Of a DNA stretch of 43,935 nucleotides, positions 32,077 through 37,684 are shown one piece after another. Location: NCBI GenBank assembly GCA_026988015.1, contig JALSMA010000050.1, positions 1 through 43,935 on the forward strand. Reading direction: 5' to 3'. A program made the translations under genes and the position numbers. The first letter of the stretch is position 1. Each line of letters begins with the position of its first letter. Source of the stretch: Desulfobulbaceae bacterium (GTDB lineage Bacteria > Desulfobacterota > Desulfobulbia > Desulfobulbales > Desulfocapsaceae). A model generated the notes under the pieces. The model was given only the letters and a program-made list of their open reading frames with translations. It did no database searches and had not been told where the DNA came from.

Positions 32077-32877
32077 ATGAAGATCAGTCTCAGTGTGGAT
32101 CAGGAGCTCTGTAAAAAATGTTACGCATGTATTGCGGAATGTCCTTTTGATCTGATAAATAAAGATAAGGAAGAATTTCCGCAGTTGCGGAAAGCAGCGG
32201 TTAAGAAATGTATCAGATGTGGGCACTGTATGGCGGTTTGTATGTCCGGCGCCCTTGATATAAGCATCTCTCCCCTGACTACAAGCCCTTCTGTTGATAA
32301 GAGTTTGTTGCCAGATCCTGAATCTGTGAGTCATTTTCTAAGCAGCCGTCGTTCCATCCGTACATACCGGAAGAAGGTTGCTGACCATTTAGTCCTCAGA
32401 CAGATACTCGAGGTGAGTCGTTATGCGCCCAGTGCCCATAATTGTCAGCCCGTTCACTGGATAATGGTGGAGAACCCTGCCGAGGTGAGGCGCCTTGCAG
32501 GATTTGTGGTTGAATACATGCAGAGTTTGAAGCTGTTTCCTGGGTTGACCCGGGCATGGGGCCAGGGGGTTGATAAGGTTCTTCGCGATGCCCCGCATCT
32601 GGCCATTGCCCATGCCGATCCCGCTGCCAGTCAACATCCCATTGAGGACTGTTCTTTGGCGACTGCGTATCTTGATCTTGCGGCGCATAGCCGTGGGCTT
32701 GGCAGTTGCTGGGCTGGATTTCTGGTGCAGGCTATTCATTTCAAGTATCAGCCGCTTCTTGATGCCCTGGATCTCCCGGAAAACCATGAGGTCTATACTG
32801 CTCTCATGCTTGGGTATCCCAAGTATCGTTATAGTCACATCCCTCAGCGTGACGATTTGAAAGTTACCTGGAAATAA
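32077..32877 (+). CDS. Ferredoxin-nitroreductase fusion protein
   Basis: The first 60 residues carry two [4Fe-4S] motifs (Cys12/15/18/22 and Cys45/48/51/55). Residues 85-266 form a nitroreductase-family FMN domain beginning SSRRSIRTYRKKVAD and containing RYAPSAHNCQPVHW. Such fusions accept electrons from ferredoxin-type donors and are common in anaerobes; the substrate is unknown. TGGAG is spaced well. The gene is flanked by repeat copies C and D in the same orientation. Confidence 0.9.
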   Translation: MKISLSVDQELCKKCYACIAECPFDLINKDKEEFPQLRKAAVKKCIRCGHCMAVCMSGALDISISPLTTSPSVDKSLLPDPESVSHFLSSRRSIRTYRKKVADHLVLRQILEVSRYAPSAHNCQPVHWIMVENPAEVRRLAGFVVEYMQSLKLFPGLTRAWGQGVDKVLRDAPHLAIAHADPAASQHPIEDCSLATAYLDLAAHSRGLGSCWAGFLVQAIHFKYQPLLDALDLPENHEVYTALMLGYPKYRYSHIPQRDDLKVTWK

Positions 32878-33046: not shown

Positions 33047-33703
33047 TTATTTTGTCAGCAGGTCATAGGAAGCCGCCTGTAGTCCCTCGAGTAGCACAAA
33101 GCGGCCGAGGGACTCCACGGGGCATGGAAATGATGCCAGAAATAGAGGGTTGTCGCAGAGGCCGCCGGAGAGGTAAAGTTTGTCAGGACGTTTGGCAAAA
33201 TTGTAGGCATTCACAGCGATACCTTTCACAAATTTTGCAACGGCACTCTCTTCACTTTCACCACTCACTACAGCATCAAAAATGTGGCTCATACCCAGCA
33301 CCCCACAGGTTACTGAAAAAGATGTTTCAGGTACCGGGATTTGGGAAAAATCCAGAGTGTAGTATTTTTCAAGTAGTTCGATGGTAAATCCCATGGAGGC
33401 GCCACATTCGGCGTTCCATCCCATGTCTTTTATTTTGGCCCCGCTGTATTTAACATATTTTATGTCACGGCTGCCACAGTCAAGCAGGGTGAAAGATTCC
33501 TCGTTAATGAGCGTAAGCCCTCCCCTTGCCAGTGCTGTGAGTTCATTTACATAGTGGTTGGCATAGCGTTTACCGTTATGGCCGGTTGCAATGGCGACCC
33601 TCATGCTGCGATCAATTGATTTTGTGGCGATAAGACGGGGGGAAGCATCTGATTCTGTGTCCAGAAGTTTGCAGTATGATGTTCCAAAGTCGGCTAGCAG
33701 CAT
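33047..33703 (-). CDS. BcrA/HgdC-type activase (ATP-dependent reductase component)
   Basis: The 218-residue protein has the ASKHA ATPase motifs: DFGTSYCKLL (5-14), LLDCGSRDIKYV (73-84) and LYLSGGLCDNPLF (176-188). Cys100 in NAECGASMGF and Cys133 in VTCGVLGMSHIFD match the two positions that hold a bridging [4Fe-4S] cluster in the dimeric activator of 2-hydroxyacyl-CoA dehydratase. It is about 40 residues shorter than HgdC. It ends the minus-strand operon, 14 bases after its Cys-rich neighbour, its probable partner. Confidence 0.88.
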   Translation of the reverse strand: MLLADFGTSYCKLLDTESDASPRLIATKSIDRSMRVAIATGHNGKRYANHYVNELTALARGGLTLINEESFTLLDCGSRDIKYVKYSGAKIKDMGWNAECGASMGFTIELLEKYYTLDFSQIPVPETSFSVTCGVLGMSHIFDAVVSGESEESAVAKFVKGIAVNAYNFAKRPDKLYLSGGLCDNPLFLASFPCPVESLGRFVLLEGLQAASYDLLTK

Positions 33704-33717
33704 GGGCAGTCCGGGGT

Positions 33718-34467
33718 TCAGATTCTGGAAAGTTCAAGAAATGCTTGAATCTTTGCTTTGACACTGTTTCCTGCTGTGACATCACAGTCAAGGTAGAGAG
33801 CATAGGGGTGTTTTCCTGCGAGATGGCGTGCCAGTGCAGTTTTGGCACAAAAAGACTGGGCAAAAAATACTGTGGGAACACTGGGGTTGAAATGAAGTTC
33901 GAGTTCCATGTTGTCAGGGGTCTTGTTTTCCATACATCGAGCCCAGCCATAGACGTGGGTGGTGTCTGGGAAGAGTTCAAGCAGGGAAAAATCCCTGGGA
34001 GGGACTCCCCAGAATCCGGCCGTTACCTTACAGGGGGGGATCTTCCTGTAAGGATCGGGGGTTTGAACAGAAGCTGTGATGGCCGCCATCTTCTGTATCA
34101 GCCCCATCTTGGATTTACACAGAGGACTTCCGAAGTTATGGGAGTCGCAGTTCTTTGTTCTGATAACCTTACAGTCTGGCAGGATATCGCTAAGGACTGT
34201 CGCCGTATGAACAGCGCAGTCACATTTTCCGGCTCCCGTATCGATATAAATGATCTCCGGGGTAACGGCCAGGCTGTTGGATATGACGGTGCGGAGAATA
34301 CCACAGTAGACCCTGGGCAGAAAAGGGGATGCTGTTTCAATATCGATTTGTCCCTGGGGTTCATCAAGGTCAAATATTTCATATCTAGGTTCTGCCAGTT
34401 TTTTTATAACCTCAAGGGGGGGGACTCCAACGATACCGACACGTATTTTCTTCGTTGTGGCACGCAT
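33718..34467 (-). CDS. Small Cys-rich protein with HgdB-like C-terminus
   Basis: The ATG at 34467 gives 249 residues with ten cysteines (55, 82, 84, 99, 107, 117, 146, 178, 207, 228). The C-terminus, FFAQSFCAK then LYLDCDVTAGNSVKAKIQAF, resembles the end of 2-hydroxyacyl-CoA dehydratase D-components (FC, LE-D, RxQAFLE pattern). Those proteins are over 370 residues, so this would be a reduced form. GKCDCAVHT is an unusual CxC. The start overlaps the lptG-like stop (ATGA). The link to that family is by eye and moderate. Confidence 0.65.
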   Translation of the reverse strand: MRATTKKIRVGIVGVPPLEVIKKLAEPRYEIFDLDEPQGQIDIETASPFLPRVYCGILRTVISNSLAVTPEIIYIDTGAGKCDCAVHTATVLSDILPDCKVIRTKNCDSHNFGSPLCKSKMGLIQKMAAITASVQTPDPYRKIPPCKVTAGFWGVPPRDFSLLELFPDTTHVYGWARCMENKTPDNMELELHFNPSVPTVFFAQSFCAKTALARHLAGKHPYALYLDCDVTAGNSVKAKIQAFLELSRI

Positions 34468-35549
34468 CAGGTTCCCTGTTTGTGCAGAAGCGTAAAGCCA
34501 CTGATACCAAAGATGACATGAATGAGTATTGCTGCAAGCAGGGGCGAGATATAGTCCACCCGGGCCAATGACTGAAGGGCTCCCCATATTCCCCAGGCAA
34601 AAAAGGCGATACCACAACTTACCGGAATGGCAACAGAGAGATCTTTTCCCCATTTTTTGTAGGAGATCAGGAGTACTGGAAGTCCAAGGAAAAGTAATGG
34701 AATACCAAGCAGAGTGTAGGAGATTCTGCTATAAAAATTGGTTTCTGCAACGATTGTTTTGTTCCGGGTATCCTGATTGTGCATGGCTTGAAAAAGTTCT
34801 GTCAGGGAGAGCTCGGCTGCTTGATATTTTGGGACAAAGAAAAAGAGCGGGCTTTCAGGAAAGGGAAATTTCTTGTAGGAGAAAAGGGTGGTACTATAAT
34901 CATCAGGAGTGGTTTTTTCATGAATCTGTCCATCGATTAGATGCCATCCCCTGTCGTCATACATTGCTTTGTTGGCAGCAATGAGAGTCTCCAGTTTGTG
35001 ATCTTTGTTCCACTTGGAATAGGAAAAATCAAAAAACACATTTCGGTTGGGATAGGGTCTGGTGAACGAGTAAAACCCCTCTTTACCCTTATAATAATAG
35101 CGGCCGTTTCGGTAAATCCCAAGGGGCACCATGCCCTTGACATTTTCATACCAGATGGTGTTAGTTGCTTCAATGGTACGTGGCAACAGCCATTGGGCCA
35201 TGGCTAGAAAAAGCATGGTGAAAATTACCGCACCGATGAGGATGGGGTTTACTATGGTTCGAAGGTGGATGCCTCCTGCCATCATCGCTGTGAGTTCTCT
35301 ATTATGGTTAAGCATTCCAAGGGTGATTACCCCCGAGAGCAGGATAAGTATCGGGCCAAGCATATCGACGATAAAGGGAATGCTCAGCAGGAAAAACTTA
35401 AAGACCAGGGTGATGGATTTGCCTGCCTCCATGAAGTTATCGATTTTTTCAAAAAAGTCGATGAGGACATAGATTGCGACAAATGCAGCGGCCACAATGA
35501 AAAAAGTTCTGGCAAATTGAGCAAGAATATAGCGATTTAGAAGGGTCAC
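34467..35549 (-). CDS. LptF/LptG-family LPS export permease
   Basis: The 360-residue protein has three N-terminal membrane segments, a periplasmic domain of about 170 residues and three C-terminal segments, the YjgP/YjgQ layout. RELTAMMAGGIHLRTI and YSRISYTLLGIPLLFLGLP are typical. LptFG with LptB pulls lipopolysaccharide from the inner membrane. The start is GTG, five bases after crcB. It is probably the LptG copy, as no second homologue is adjacent. Confidence 0.88.
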   Translation of the reverse strand: MTLLNRYILAQFARTFFIVAAAFVAIYVLIDFFEKIDNFMEAGKSITLVFKFFLLSIPFIVDMLGPILILLSGVITLGMLNHNRELTAMMAGGIHLRTIVNPILIGAVIFTMLFLAMAQWLLPRTIEATNTIWYENVKGMVPLGIYRNGRYYYKGKEGFYSFTRPYPNRNVFFDFSYSKWNKDHKLETLIAANKAMYDDRGWHLIDGQIHEKTTPDDYSTTLFSYKKFPFPESPLFFFVPKYQAAELSLTELFQAMHNQDTRNKTIVAETNFYSRISYTLLGIPLLFLGLPVLLISYKKWGKDLSVAIPVSCGIAFFAWGIWGALQSLARVDYISPLLAAILIHVIFGISGFTLLHKQGT

Positions 35550-35554
35550 AACTA

Positions 35555-35935
35555 TTACCAGCGGATGAAACGATGGGCCAGCAGAAAACCTGCAGCCACC
35601 ATCCCAAGCCCGAATATATTTGAGATAGCAAGATATGAAAATGCCTGGATATGTTCACCCATTTTGAAAAGCTGTACAGTTTCCCGTGCAAAGGTTGAAA
35701 AAGTTGTAAAACCTCCGAGGAAACCGGTAAAGAGGAACAGCCTGAATTCATTGCTGATGGTAACCCTGTCAAACAGTGACCAGAGGATACCGATGAGCAG
35801 GCAGCCAAGCAAATTTGCAAGGAAGGTTCCTGTTGGAAAGCTATGGGTGTGGTAATCCCCTGCAACCAGGGCAATTAAATACCGTCCAACTGATCCGAAC
35901 GCTCCACCAAGAGCCACTGCAAATATTTTTTCCAT
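35555..35935 (-). CDS. crcB: Fluoride channel CrcB/FluC
   Basis: The 126-residue protein has four membrane segments. GGAFGSVGRYL, NLLGCLLIG and GGFTTFSTFARE are the Fluc motifs that form the fluoride pore. It exports fluoride as a dual-topology dimer. It leads the minus-strand operon. The upstream 125 bases do not contain a convincing fluoride riboswitch. Confidence 0.93.
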   Translation of the reverse strand: MEKIFAVALGGAFGSVGRYLIALVAGDYHTHSFPTGTFLANLLGCLLIGILWSLFDRVTISNEFRLFLFTGFLGGFTTFSTFARETVQLFKMGEHIQAFSYLAISNIFGLGMVAAGFLLAHRFIRW

Positions 35936-36061
35936 CCCGTTTGAGATTTCGTTTAAATAGGGTATGTTTCTGTAATTGAAGCTGGCTTGCAGTAGGTAAC
36001 ATCATCGCCGATGAACGTCAAGTAGAAGGCGTAGTTCAGGAGAGAAGAGGTATTGTACAAT

Positions 36062-37684
36062 ATGAAGCCCCTGGTATGTTTAATACAGGTTGAAGCGCAG
36101 CCTCCGGCGCTGCATGATAATACCGCGGATCTGGATCGTCTCCAGCTGGCACTGCAGAATGCTCTTGCCGATGGTCGCTCTGTTTCTATCCCCTATAGAG
36201 CTATGGTCTATGTCAGTCGCGGCTTTCGTGGTGCAGGGTTTTGCGGTTGGGCCCTGCTGAACAATCTGGAGCAGGGATGGGAGGTGGTGGGTTTTTTTAA
36301 CGAGAAACCGTTGAATATTCCCGCCATGGCTCTTGATCTCGGAACAACTCACCTTGAGGCTTCACTGCTGAATCTTCAGACTGGTGAGCTGATGTCAGAG
36401 GGAGACTGTGAAAATACCCAGATTGCCTTTGGCGCAGATATCCTCAGCCGCATTCATCACGGCACCACTTTACGGCGACAGCAGAAGCCCCTTCCTGACG
36501 ACTTCCTGGATCCAGGACTTGCTGAGCTTCAAAAAACAATTATAACTGCAGTCAATGAGCTTGCAGAAGTACTTGTTCGGCGGGCAGGACTTGAAGTGTG
36601 GGAGATTCGCGCTCTGGCAGTATCAGGTAATACTACCATGGCTCACCTGTTTTTGGGGATGGATCCCTATCATCTCTGTCGGGAACCTTATATCCCTCTC
36701 TTCAACAGAGCGCCAGTGATATCCGGCAGGGACATAGGGCTGACCATTCATGCAATGGCTCCTGTGTGGATCATGCCGTCTGTGGGGAGCTATTTTGGCG
36801 GGGATCTGATTTCAGGAATACTGGCCTCTGGAATGGCAGAATCTGATAAAACCAGGATGCTTATAGATGTTGGAACCAATGCTGAAGTGGTTCTTGGAAA
36901 CAGTGAGTGGCTGATAGCCTGCGCCGGTGCTGCCGGCCCGGCCCTTGAAGGTGGGGTGGCCAGAATGGGAATGCGGGCAGGACCCGGTGCCATTGAGTAT
37001 GTCTCCATTGACCCCGTAAGCTATGAGGTGAGTTACCGTACCATTGGCGAAGTAGCTCCGAAGGGCATCTGCGGCTCGGGCCTGATTGATCTTGTGGCTG
37101 CGCTCTATCTCACGCGGATGATAGATATCCGTGGTAAGTACAGGGATCCTGACACTGAAAAAGATCCATTACGGGCAGATTTTATGAAAAAGCATCTTGT
37201 CGCTGTTGATGATGGGTTTGTGTTTGTGCTGACAGGGAATGTAGAGTCAGGGATTACGGATCAGGTGGTTCTTGAGCAGGTAGACCTGGATGCTATGATT
37301 CGTTCCAAGGCTGCAATGTATGCAATCCTGACTACCTTGATCAACCAGGTGGGACTGGAGTTTGATGAACTTGAAGAAATAACGGTCGCCGGGGCCTTTG
37401 GACGTCATATTAAACCGCAGAGTGCCATGACTCTTGGTATGCTCCCGGATCTGCCGCTTTCCACCTATCGTGCCATCGGGAATAGTTCTCTTCGCGGTGC
37501 AGAAAAGGTGCTTCTTGATCGTGACGCCCGTCTGGCCTGTGAACAAATCGTTTCCTCCATCACCTATCTTGAGCTCAATGTGAATCAGGAATTTATGATT
37601 CGTTTTTCAGGGGCTCATTTTATTCCGCATACTGATCCTTCTTTTTTTCCTTCAGTTCCATCGTTTAGAGAGACGGACAAGTAA
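36062..37684 (+). CDS. RACo-like ASKHA ATPase without iron-sulfur domain
   Basis: From the ATG at 36062 the protein has 540 residues. It carries the DUF4445/RACo-type ATPase: ALDLGTTHLEASLL (90-103), SGNTTMAHLFLGMDPY, LIDVGTNAEVVLGN, GICGSGLIDLVAALY and VAGAFGRHIKPQSAM. RACo-type proteins use ATP to reduce inactive Co(II) corrinoid proteins, normally through an N-terminal [2Fe-2S] domain. Here the first 88 residues lack that cysteine pattern. AGAGG at 36046-36050 lies upstream; a TTG at 36053 is an alternative start. It diverges from crcB. Confidence 0.85.
   Translation: MKPLVCLIQVEAQPPALHDNTADLDRLQLALQNALADGRSVSIPYRAMVYVSRGFRGAGFCGWALLNNLEQGWEVVGFFNEKPLNIPAMALDLGTTHLEASLLNLQTGELMSEGDCENTQIAFGADILSRIHHGTTLRRQQKPLPDDFLDPGLAELQKTIITAVNELAEVLVRRAGLEVWEIRALAVSGNTTMAHLFLGMDPYHLCREPYIPLFNRAPVISGRDIGLTIHAMAPVWIMPSVGSYFGGDLISGILASGMAESDKTRMLIDVGTNAEVVLGNSEWLIACAGAAGPALEGGVARMGMRAGPGAIEYVSIDPVSYEVSYRTIGEVAPKGICGSGLIDLVAALYLTRMIDIRGKYRDPDTEKDPLRADFMKKHLVAVDDGFVFVLTGNVESGITDQVVLEQVDLDAMIRSKAAMYAILTTLINQVGLEFDELEEITVAGAFGRHIKPQSAMTLGMLPDLPLSTYRAIGNSSLRGAEKVLLDRDARLACEQIVSSITYLELNVNQEFMIRFSGAHFIPHTDPSFFPSVPSFRETDK

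Follow-up and report, generated by a model that had tools for sequence, protein, structure and literature searches.

What might an ATP-driven activase serve when the gene beside it encodes a cysteine-rich protein of only 249 residues, and no ordinary dehydratase subunit accompanies the two? A gene pair of this kind lies in the stretch of 43,935 nucleotides analysed here (the window), on contig JALSMA010000050.1 of a Desulfobulbaceae bacterium. The likeliest answer, and one that we regard as probable, is that the products P1 and P2 together form a miniature electron-transfer system, driven by ATP, of the BCR-I/HAD/DCCP kind (benzoyl-CoA reductase, 2-hydroxyacyl-CoA dehydratase, double-cubane cluster protein).

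The gene row and the activase P2

The minus-strand genes run in the order CrcB, LptG, P1 and P2 (Table 1). CrcB and LptG lie 5 nt apart, the LptG stop overlaps the P1 start by a single nucleotide, and 14 nt separate P1 from P2. Beyond CrcB, a gene for a short RACo (sRACo) is divergently transcribed. On the other side of the pair, window positions 32077-32877 encode a nitroreductase-fold protein with an N-terminal 2[4Fe-4S] ferredoxin; its gene is convergent to P2 and was seen in 13 of 81 loci.

Table 1. Positions of the genes and cysteine codons discussed (window coordinates unless another locus is named)
Feature	Position	Strand	Description	Basis or remark
P1	33718..34467	minus	249 aa, predicted compact HgdB/DCCP-type protein	ORF and translation
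P2	33047..33703	minus	218 aa, predicted HgdC/BcrA/DCCP-R type ASKHA ATPase (activase)	
LptG-type permease	34467..35549	minus		PF03739, 1.5e-61
CrcB/Fluc fluoride channel	35555..35935	minus		PF02537, 4.7e-29
Short RACo (sRACo)	36053..37684	plus	RACo/AcsV-like ATPase	PF14574, 3.3e-92
P1 Cys55 codon	34303..34305	minus	DCCP-type 'NIC' cysteine, BzdN Cys73 position	3 of 3 MAFFT modes
P1 Cys82 codon	34222..34224	minus	DCCP-type 'TTCD' cysteine, BzdN Cys100 position	3 of 3 MAFFT modes
P1 Cys178 codon	33934..33936	minus	DCCP-type 'ESC' cysteine, BzdN Cys263 position	2 of 3 MAFFT modes
P1 Cys207 codon	33847..33849	minus	DCCP-type 'QFC' cysteine, BzdN Cys327 position	2 of 3 MAFFT modes
P2 Cys100 codon	33404..33406	minus	first bridging-cluster cysteine	120/120
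P2 Cys133 codon	33305..33307	minus	second bridging-cluster cysteine	120/120
DUF362 gene downstream of P2	L091 2137-2955			
DUF362 gene downstream of P2	L067 11638-12438			

By its modelled ASKHA fold, its ATP-motif residues and its two bridging-cluster cysteines, P2 is an activase, as the earlier note had read it. P2 matched TIGR00241 (E 2.7e-9, 36.9 bits) and PF01869 (E 9.3e-4, 19.2 bits) without reaching their curated cut-offs of 125.4 and 31.5 bits. A P2 profile built from 32 homologues matched the solved activases HgdC (1hux, 2e-10), DCCP reductase (7yyl, 5.5e-10) and HadI (4eht, 3e-9), and more weakly MbdQ (5.6e-5) and MbdP (0.0014). The AF2 model of P2 (pLDDT 91.9, pTM 0.88) gave the same picture when ranked against the folds of the PDB, with four different activases filling the first six entries at Z 19.5-21.4 and pantothenate kinase coming next at 16.6. 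Residue conservation was counted over matches that span 85% or more of the query, including loci L246-L261, which entered these counts only; this gave 122 distinct sequences for P1 and 120 for P2. Both cluster cysteines of P2 were kept without exception, and D5, G7, K12, D75, G77, D80 and S179-G180-G181, which we take to be the ATP motifs, were conserved at 99% or more. The protein thus appears to belong to the type of activase that serves CoA enzymes, with ATP-dependent reduction of a partner as its putative activity.

Fold and cysteines of P1

Sequence comparison alone places P1 poorly. The family search proposed in the earlier note came back empty, since a Pfam scan up to E 1 gave no match of any kind, DUF523 included, and the NCBIfam scan gave a chance-level match only (E 0.21). 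The single PDB sequence-profile match was a weak one to HadC (3o3m_B, E 0.47), which brings C55, C82 and the C-terminal motif into line, and profile-profile comparison with DCCP-type proteins was likewise weak (probability 1.4%, E 0.036). One P1 gene elsewhere (G082) did match PF06050 (E 9e-4, 19.4 bits against a cut-off of 28.4), no more strongly than seemingly unrelated zinc-ribbon proteins (G072, G099). Small Cys-rich, zinc-ribbon-looking proteins (L224 5642-6295 and L225 4960-5610) gave weak PF06050 matches of 22-23 bits, which are probably due to chance.

Structure prediction is more informative. The AF2 model of P1 (pLDDT 87.3, pTM 0.82) had 3o3m_B as its best Foldseek match (8e-6), and in a comparison with the PDB (VIA) its top ten entries were all BCR, HAD or DCCP subunits, aligned over 227-234 residues at Z 11.6-13.6; the entry that follows them has only 5.7. 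P1 is therefore predicted to adopt the full-length HgdB/BCR/DCCP fold of two Rossmann domains, in agreement with the HgdB-like character first suspected from its C-terminal signature.

In BzdNO, according to PMC11971306, the N-terminal helix joins the three helices of the intermediate domain in a bundle that helps to build the CoA channel. The first strand of the P1 model lies near residue 8, and 96 residues separate Cys82 from Cys178, as against 163 between BzdN Cys100 and Cys263 in the numbering of PMC11971306; the difference is about the size of the 72-residue intermediate domain of BzdN. Considering this start and this spacing, the N-terminal helix and the intermediate helical domain appear to be missing; between residues 105 and 149 the model shows no helices other than 114-117 and 123-131. 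P1 thus seems to have no counterpart of the helical middle domain that shapes the CoA channel in BzdNO. For this reason the model lends indirect support to the earlier suggestion that the pair may act on something other than a hydroxyacyl-CoA.

Ten cysteines are indeed present in P1, at 55, 82, 84, 99, 107, 117, 146, 178, 207 and 228, just as the earlier note had counted, but only Cys55, Cys82, Cys178 and Cys207 are invariant among the 122 distinct homologues; Cys117 is kept in 116, Cys146 in 105, Cys84 in 92 and Cys228 in 79. In-frame stops were seen in a few copies of the gene. At L110 10001-10717 a TAA falls on the otherwise invariant Lys81, beside Cys82, and may reflect sequencing error or decay; single in-frame stops also occur in the P1 genes of G090 (TAA) and G144 (TAG).

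The four invariant cysteines were placed by aligning P1, in three MAFFT modes, with a set of 28 full-length HGD-D proteins drawn from the order. The register of Cys82 was repeated in the weak HadC (PDB) and DCCP profile-profile matches. In one of the modes C207 fell on the 'ESC' position instead. One of the 28 proteins (L168) matched DCCP (6eno and 7yyl) at e-151 against the PDB and also aligns with BzdN, thereby linking the P1 positions to BzdN numbering. PMC11971306 gives the [8Fe-9S] ligands of BzdN as Cys36, 73, 100, 263, 293 and 327, and those of the [4Fe-4S] cluster that takes the place of the proximal subcluster in BzdO as Cys95, 128 and 380. On this numbering P1 keeps the equivalents of BzdN 73, 100, 327 and 263 and lacks those of 36 and 293. 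Three of the kept residues, two in the N-domain and one in the C-domain, would then be the proximal ligands (73, 100, 327), and the fourth (263) a distal one. With four invariant cysteines, P1 does not have the six [8Fe-9S] cysteine ligands of a double-cubane cluster protein, and this retained set points to just one cluster, whose fourth ligand would be special.

The two predicted folds and the conserved residues suggest how the pair might work, both in cluster type and in electron transfer. P2 would form a dimer around one [4Fe-4S] cluster held by Cys100 and Cys133 of each chain, and binding and hydrolysis of ATP would push a very-low-potential electron into P1. P1 would be the two-Rossmann-domain core of an HgdB/DCCP subunit, stripped of the helical bundle that helps to form the CoA channel, and would probably carry one [4Fe-4S] cluster between its halves on the proximal-subcluster ligands Cys55, Cys82 and Cys207. 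Cys178, which takes the position of a distal-subcluster ligand, could close the fourth iron site or act as a reactive thiol. The electron would then leave P1 for a small molecule or another protein, as should be expected of a protein that appears to have no CoA channel.

A quite different reading is that P1 is a non-redox structural or scaffold relative that shares only the Rossmann pair with these enzymes. The non-significant sequence similarity to characterised enzymes is what would be expected of such a protein. Invariance of the four cysteines in 122 of 122 homologues would be hard to reconcile with a scaffold, as would near-strict co-occurrence with an activase, and we consider this reading quite improbable.

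Distribution, neighbours and possible clients

The co-occurrence check proposed at the outset shows that P1 and P2 are kept together across most of the order. P1 was found in 158 of 193 genomes and P2 in 160, with the two concordant in 191; every genome with P1 has P2, and the two with P2 only (G027, G075) are 84% and 72% complete. A scan for two exact-motif patterns confirmed 193 loci, and in 78 of the best 80 of these both genes lie on one strand, 77 of them no more than 310 nt apart. The sole wider case among those 80 is L067, with a separation of 2,985 nt, and the two of the 80 without P2 (L075, L085) are cut short by the end of the contig. The interval between P1 and P2 in L067 (8038-10914) holds three envelope-type genes, read from sequence as a glycosyltransferase, a small lipid-A-type protein and an ArnT-like protein.

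Within the host genome, which is 99.82% complete, no protein matched PF06050, the P2 profile found one match, and the only other PF01869 match was a protein read as hydantoinase-like. As neither a PF06050 protein nor another activase was found, P1 is the only visible family partner of P2. The earlier remark that no second dehydratase subunit lies near the pair therefore holds for the genome as a whole at the level of PF06050, and a second HGD-D subunit, as in HgdAB, HadBC or BzdNO, was not found there. Among the 158 pair-positive genomes, PF06050 was over its cut-off in 79 and in none of the other 79, three of which gave weak matches only, one of these being P1 itself.

Carriers outside the order are few. 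In a survey of the phylum, P1 was found in 25 of 394 genomes, namely 18 of the order, four of family f28 and three of family f50, although the profile was built from 15 sequences, all from the order, and may have overlooked distant relatives in other parts of the phylum. P2 adjoins P1 in the f28 and f50 loci wherever the contig continues. All eight examined genomes of the class to which f50 belongs carry P1, and the two complete f50 copies are 37-38% identical to that of the window. In two f28 loci the pair lies upstream of lysS-lolC-lolD-bamA, as read from protein starts only. The related loci include many named Desulfobulbaceae, Desulfocapsa, Desulfofustis, Desulfoprunum, Desulfobulbus and Ca. 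Electronema, and a few Desulfobacteraceae or Desulfoarculaceae, and on these names the order is taken to be Desulfobulbales; a cable bacterium, Ca. Electronema aureum (L093), is among the carriers. The viral contigs searched held no relative of the pair.

Loci of pair-negative genomes were used to separate the pair from its neighbours. In the 11 that were read, the pair and the RACo gene were both gone in every case, while LptG (11), a DHH gene (11), GlgC (10), FKBP (9), RelA-ProS (7) and CrcB (6) were in place. No remnants of P1 or P2 were found in these loci; the best match had E 0.038 (P2, L219) and the rest were above 2. Where FKBP follows LptG, no replacement gene was seen at the empty site (the two are about 90 nt apart in L217), and the empty sites of L213 and L215 carry other genes, among them a DUF362 gene in L213. 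The operon described in the earlier note, in which the pair is joined by a fluoride channel and an LPS permease, is real in the window but tells little about function, as LptG is kept in all 11 pair-negative loci and the pair sits away from LptG in other lineages; LptG was accordingly set aside as a functional partner. CrcB occurs in 29 of 81 loci. A DUF362 gene downstream of P2, found in 18 of 81 loci, is kept in four pair-negative loci and so is not tied to the pair.

Neighbouring genes also bear on whether the client is a small metabolite that the pair reduces or dehydrates, possibly even a CoA thioester with another mode of binding. CoA thioesters are the substrates of benzoyl-CoA reductases and 2-hydroxyacyl-CoA dehydratases, but P1 appears to be without the N-terminal helix and the helical domain that help to build a CoA channel, and no CoA ligase or transferase was seen among the genes scanned beside the pair. 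In one f50 genome (L145) the pair lies between metallo-beta-lactamase-fold genes, about 4 kb from a methylmalonyl-CoA mutase, and that proximity keeps a CoA substrate in play. On these grounds a small-metabolite client is rather unlikely.

If the client is a protein, the genetic evidence points first to the RACo gene next door. Against the AcsV profile of 632 positions, the match of its product begins at position 128, which leaves the window RACo without the ferredoxin domain, and it is conceivable that the pair feeds electrons to this ferredoxin-less protein or to its corrinoid client in place of the missing [2Fe-2S] domain. In 56 of 81 loci, sRACo and the pair are divergent neighbours. When sRACo is scored by strong similarity (E 1e-120 or lower, plus G098, where two fragments lie at contig edges), it was found in 132 of the 193 genomes of the order, and in 125 of the 158 pair-positive ones. 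None of the 23 pair-negative genomes that are at least 90% complete has it, although LptG was found in only 19 of these, so that the assemblies of the remaining four may simply lack this region, and these counts ignore shared ancestry. It does occur in seven of 12 less complete pair-negative genomes, two of which have P2.

Two further arrangements favour sRACo as the client. LptG, which lies between the pair and sRACo, is the gene that stays in all 11 loci from which both have gone, with CrcB staying in six. In four g53 genomes sRACo remains beside LptG and the pair is on another contig, so that the two persist together even when unlinked. Together these patterns are hints that sRACo depends on the pair. 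The reverse dependence does not hold, since 33 pair-positive genomes have no sRACo (again a count that ignores shared ancestry), some of them without any RACo; one genus (g24) has the pair in 16 of 16 genomes and sRACo in none, so sRACo cannot be the only client. We therefore put sRACo forward as a tentative client only, and lean towards thinking the idea unlikely. Single in-frame stops in sRACo raised the thought of selenocysteine or other recoding, which was dropped, as the stop marks the gene end in the three cases resolved (L226, L227 and L237).

The same neighbourhood would also suit a wider role in which the pair matures or reductively activates the Wood-Ljungdahl enzymes (ACS, CODH or the corrinoid iron-sulfur protein). 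Beyond the adjoining sRACo, 152 of the order's 193 genomes have ACS (PF03598), and so do most pair-positive genomes. Occurrence at the level of genera speaks clearly against this role, for genus g24, with the pair throughout, has no ACS and only two genomes with RACo (PF14574), and genus g5 has the pair in none of 11 genomes and both ACS and RACo in all 11. The restriction of P1 to the few genomes of the phylum survey points the same way. The link was rejected on the g24 and g5 pattern, and as an explanation it is extremely improbable.

Taken with the probable reading of P1 and P2 as a miniature electron-transfer pair, these observations sharpen the earlier interpretation, which they support, to an HgdB/DCCP core without the CoA domain and with four essential-looking cysteines instead of ten. 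Neither of the two outcomes that the earlier note named as refuting occurred, since the modelled P1 does resemble HgdB-type subunits and the two genes do co-occur in related genomes. A more specific version is possible, though we would stop short of calling it probable: a minimal archerase, in which a small four-cysteine electron-injecting protein with its own ATPase, and without a CoA site, powers either a protein client, such as a ferredoxin-less RACo with its corrinoid protein, or the reduction of a small molecule.

Such a pair would show how little ATP-coupled electron injection may need. According to PMC11971306, the BCR-I/HAD/DCCP family performs very-low-potential reductions, and new functions have been proposed to arise when the double-cubane cluster loses a subcluster. 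P1 would be a natural case, having lost two distal ligands, the CoA site and roughly two fifths of its length, with the ATP-driven activase kept. Its function, whatever the client, appears to be conserved across most Desulfobulbales, sulfur-metabolising bacteria that include the cable bacterium mentioned above, and the small size of the pair makes it well suited to spectroscopy and structure determination.

Comparison with known systems

The published literature that was searched holds no description of this pair, although an earlier mention in papers on double-cubane proteins is possible. The MCR-activation complex of methanogens was considered as an analogue and set aside: PMC12176620 does not contain 'dehydratase', 'BcrA' or 'ASKHA', and has 'double-cubane' only among its references.

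Among systems with a related chemistry, the RACo/AcsV corrinoid activators likewise couple ATP, through an ASKHA protein, to reductive activation, and a short form is encoded next door. They belong to a different ASKHA branch and are not known to have an HgdB-type partner. For the TudS/RudS desulfidases (DUF523), the Pfam scan of P1 gave no match up to E 1. TudS is not known to need an activase.

The characterised members of the dehydratase and reductase family are closer. The (R)-2-hydroxyisocaproyl-CoA dehydratase HadBC with HadI (3o3m, 4eht) and HgdC (1hux) share the fold with P1 on one side and match P2 on the other, but P1 differs from HadBC in size, in being a single subunit, in its apparent lack of a CoA channel and in its fourth invariant cysteine. 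The highest fold matches of all came from the class I benzoyl-CoA reductases BzdNO/MbdON with BzdPQ/MbdPQ (8s02, 9gai, 9gba), at Z 13.6 for P1 (9gai_B) and Z 21.4 for P2 (9gba_D). Those enzymes are built from two HGD-D subunits and possess a CoA channel, whereas here there is one compact subunit in a host without a PF06050 match.

Another close arrangement is that of DCCP with DCCP-R (6eno, 7yyl, 7yzm), where an activase likewise serves one type of HGD-D subunit. Full-length HGD-D proteins, one of which (L168) proved on testing to be a DCCP, are encoded in 79 of the 158 pair-positive genomes, and these are genes separate from P1. DCCP has 421-422 residues against the 249 of P1, which appears to be without the helical domain and the equivalents of BzdN Cys36 and Cys293. 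The predicted folds match at Z 12.2-12.9 for P1 and 21.1 for P2, and four of the six cluster cysteines are in register.
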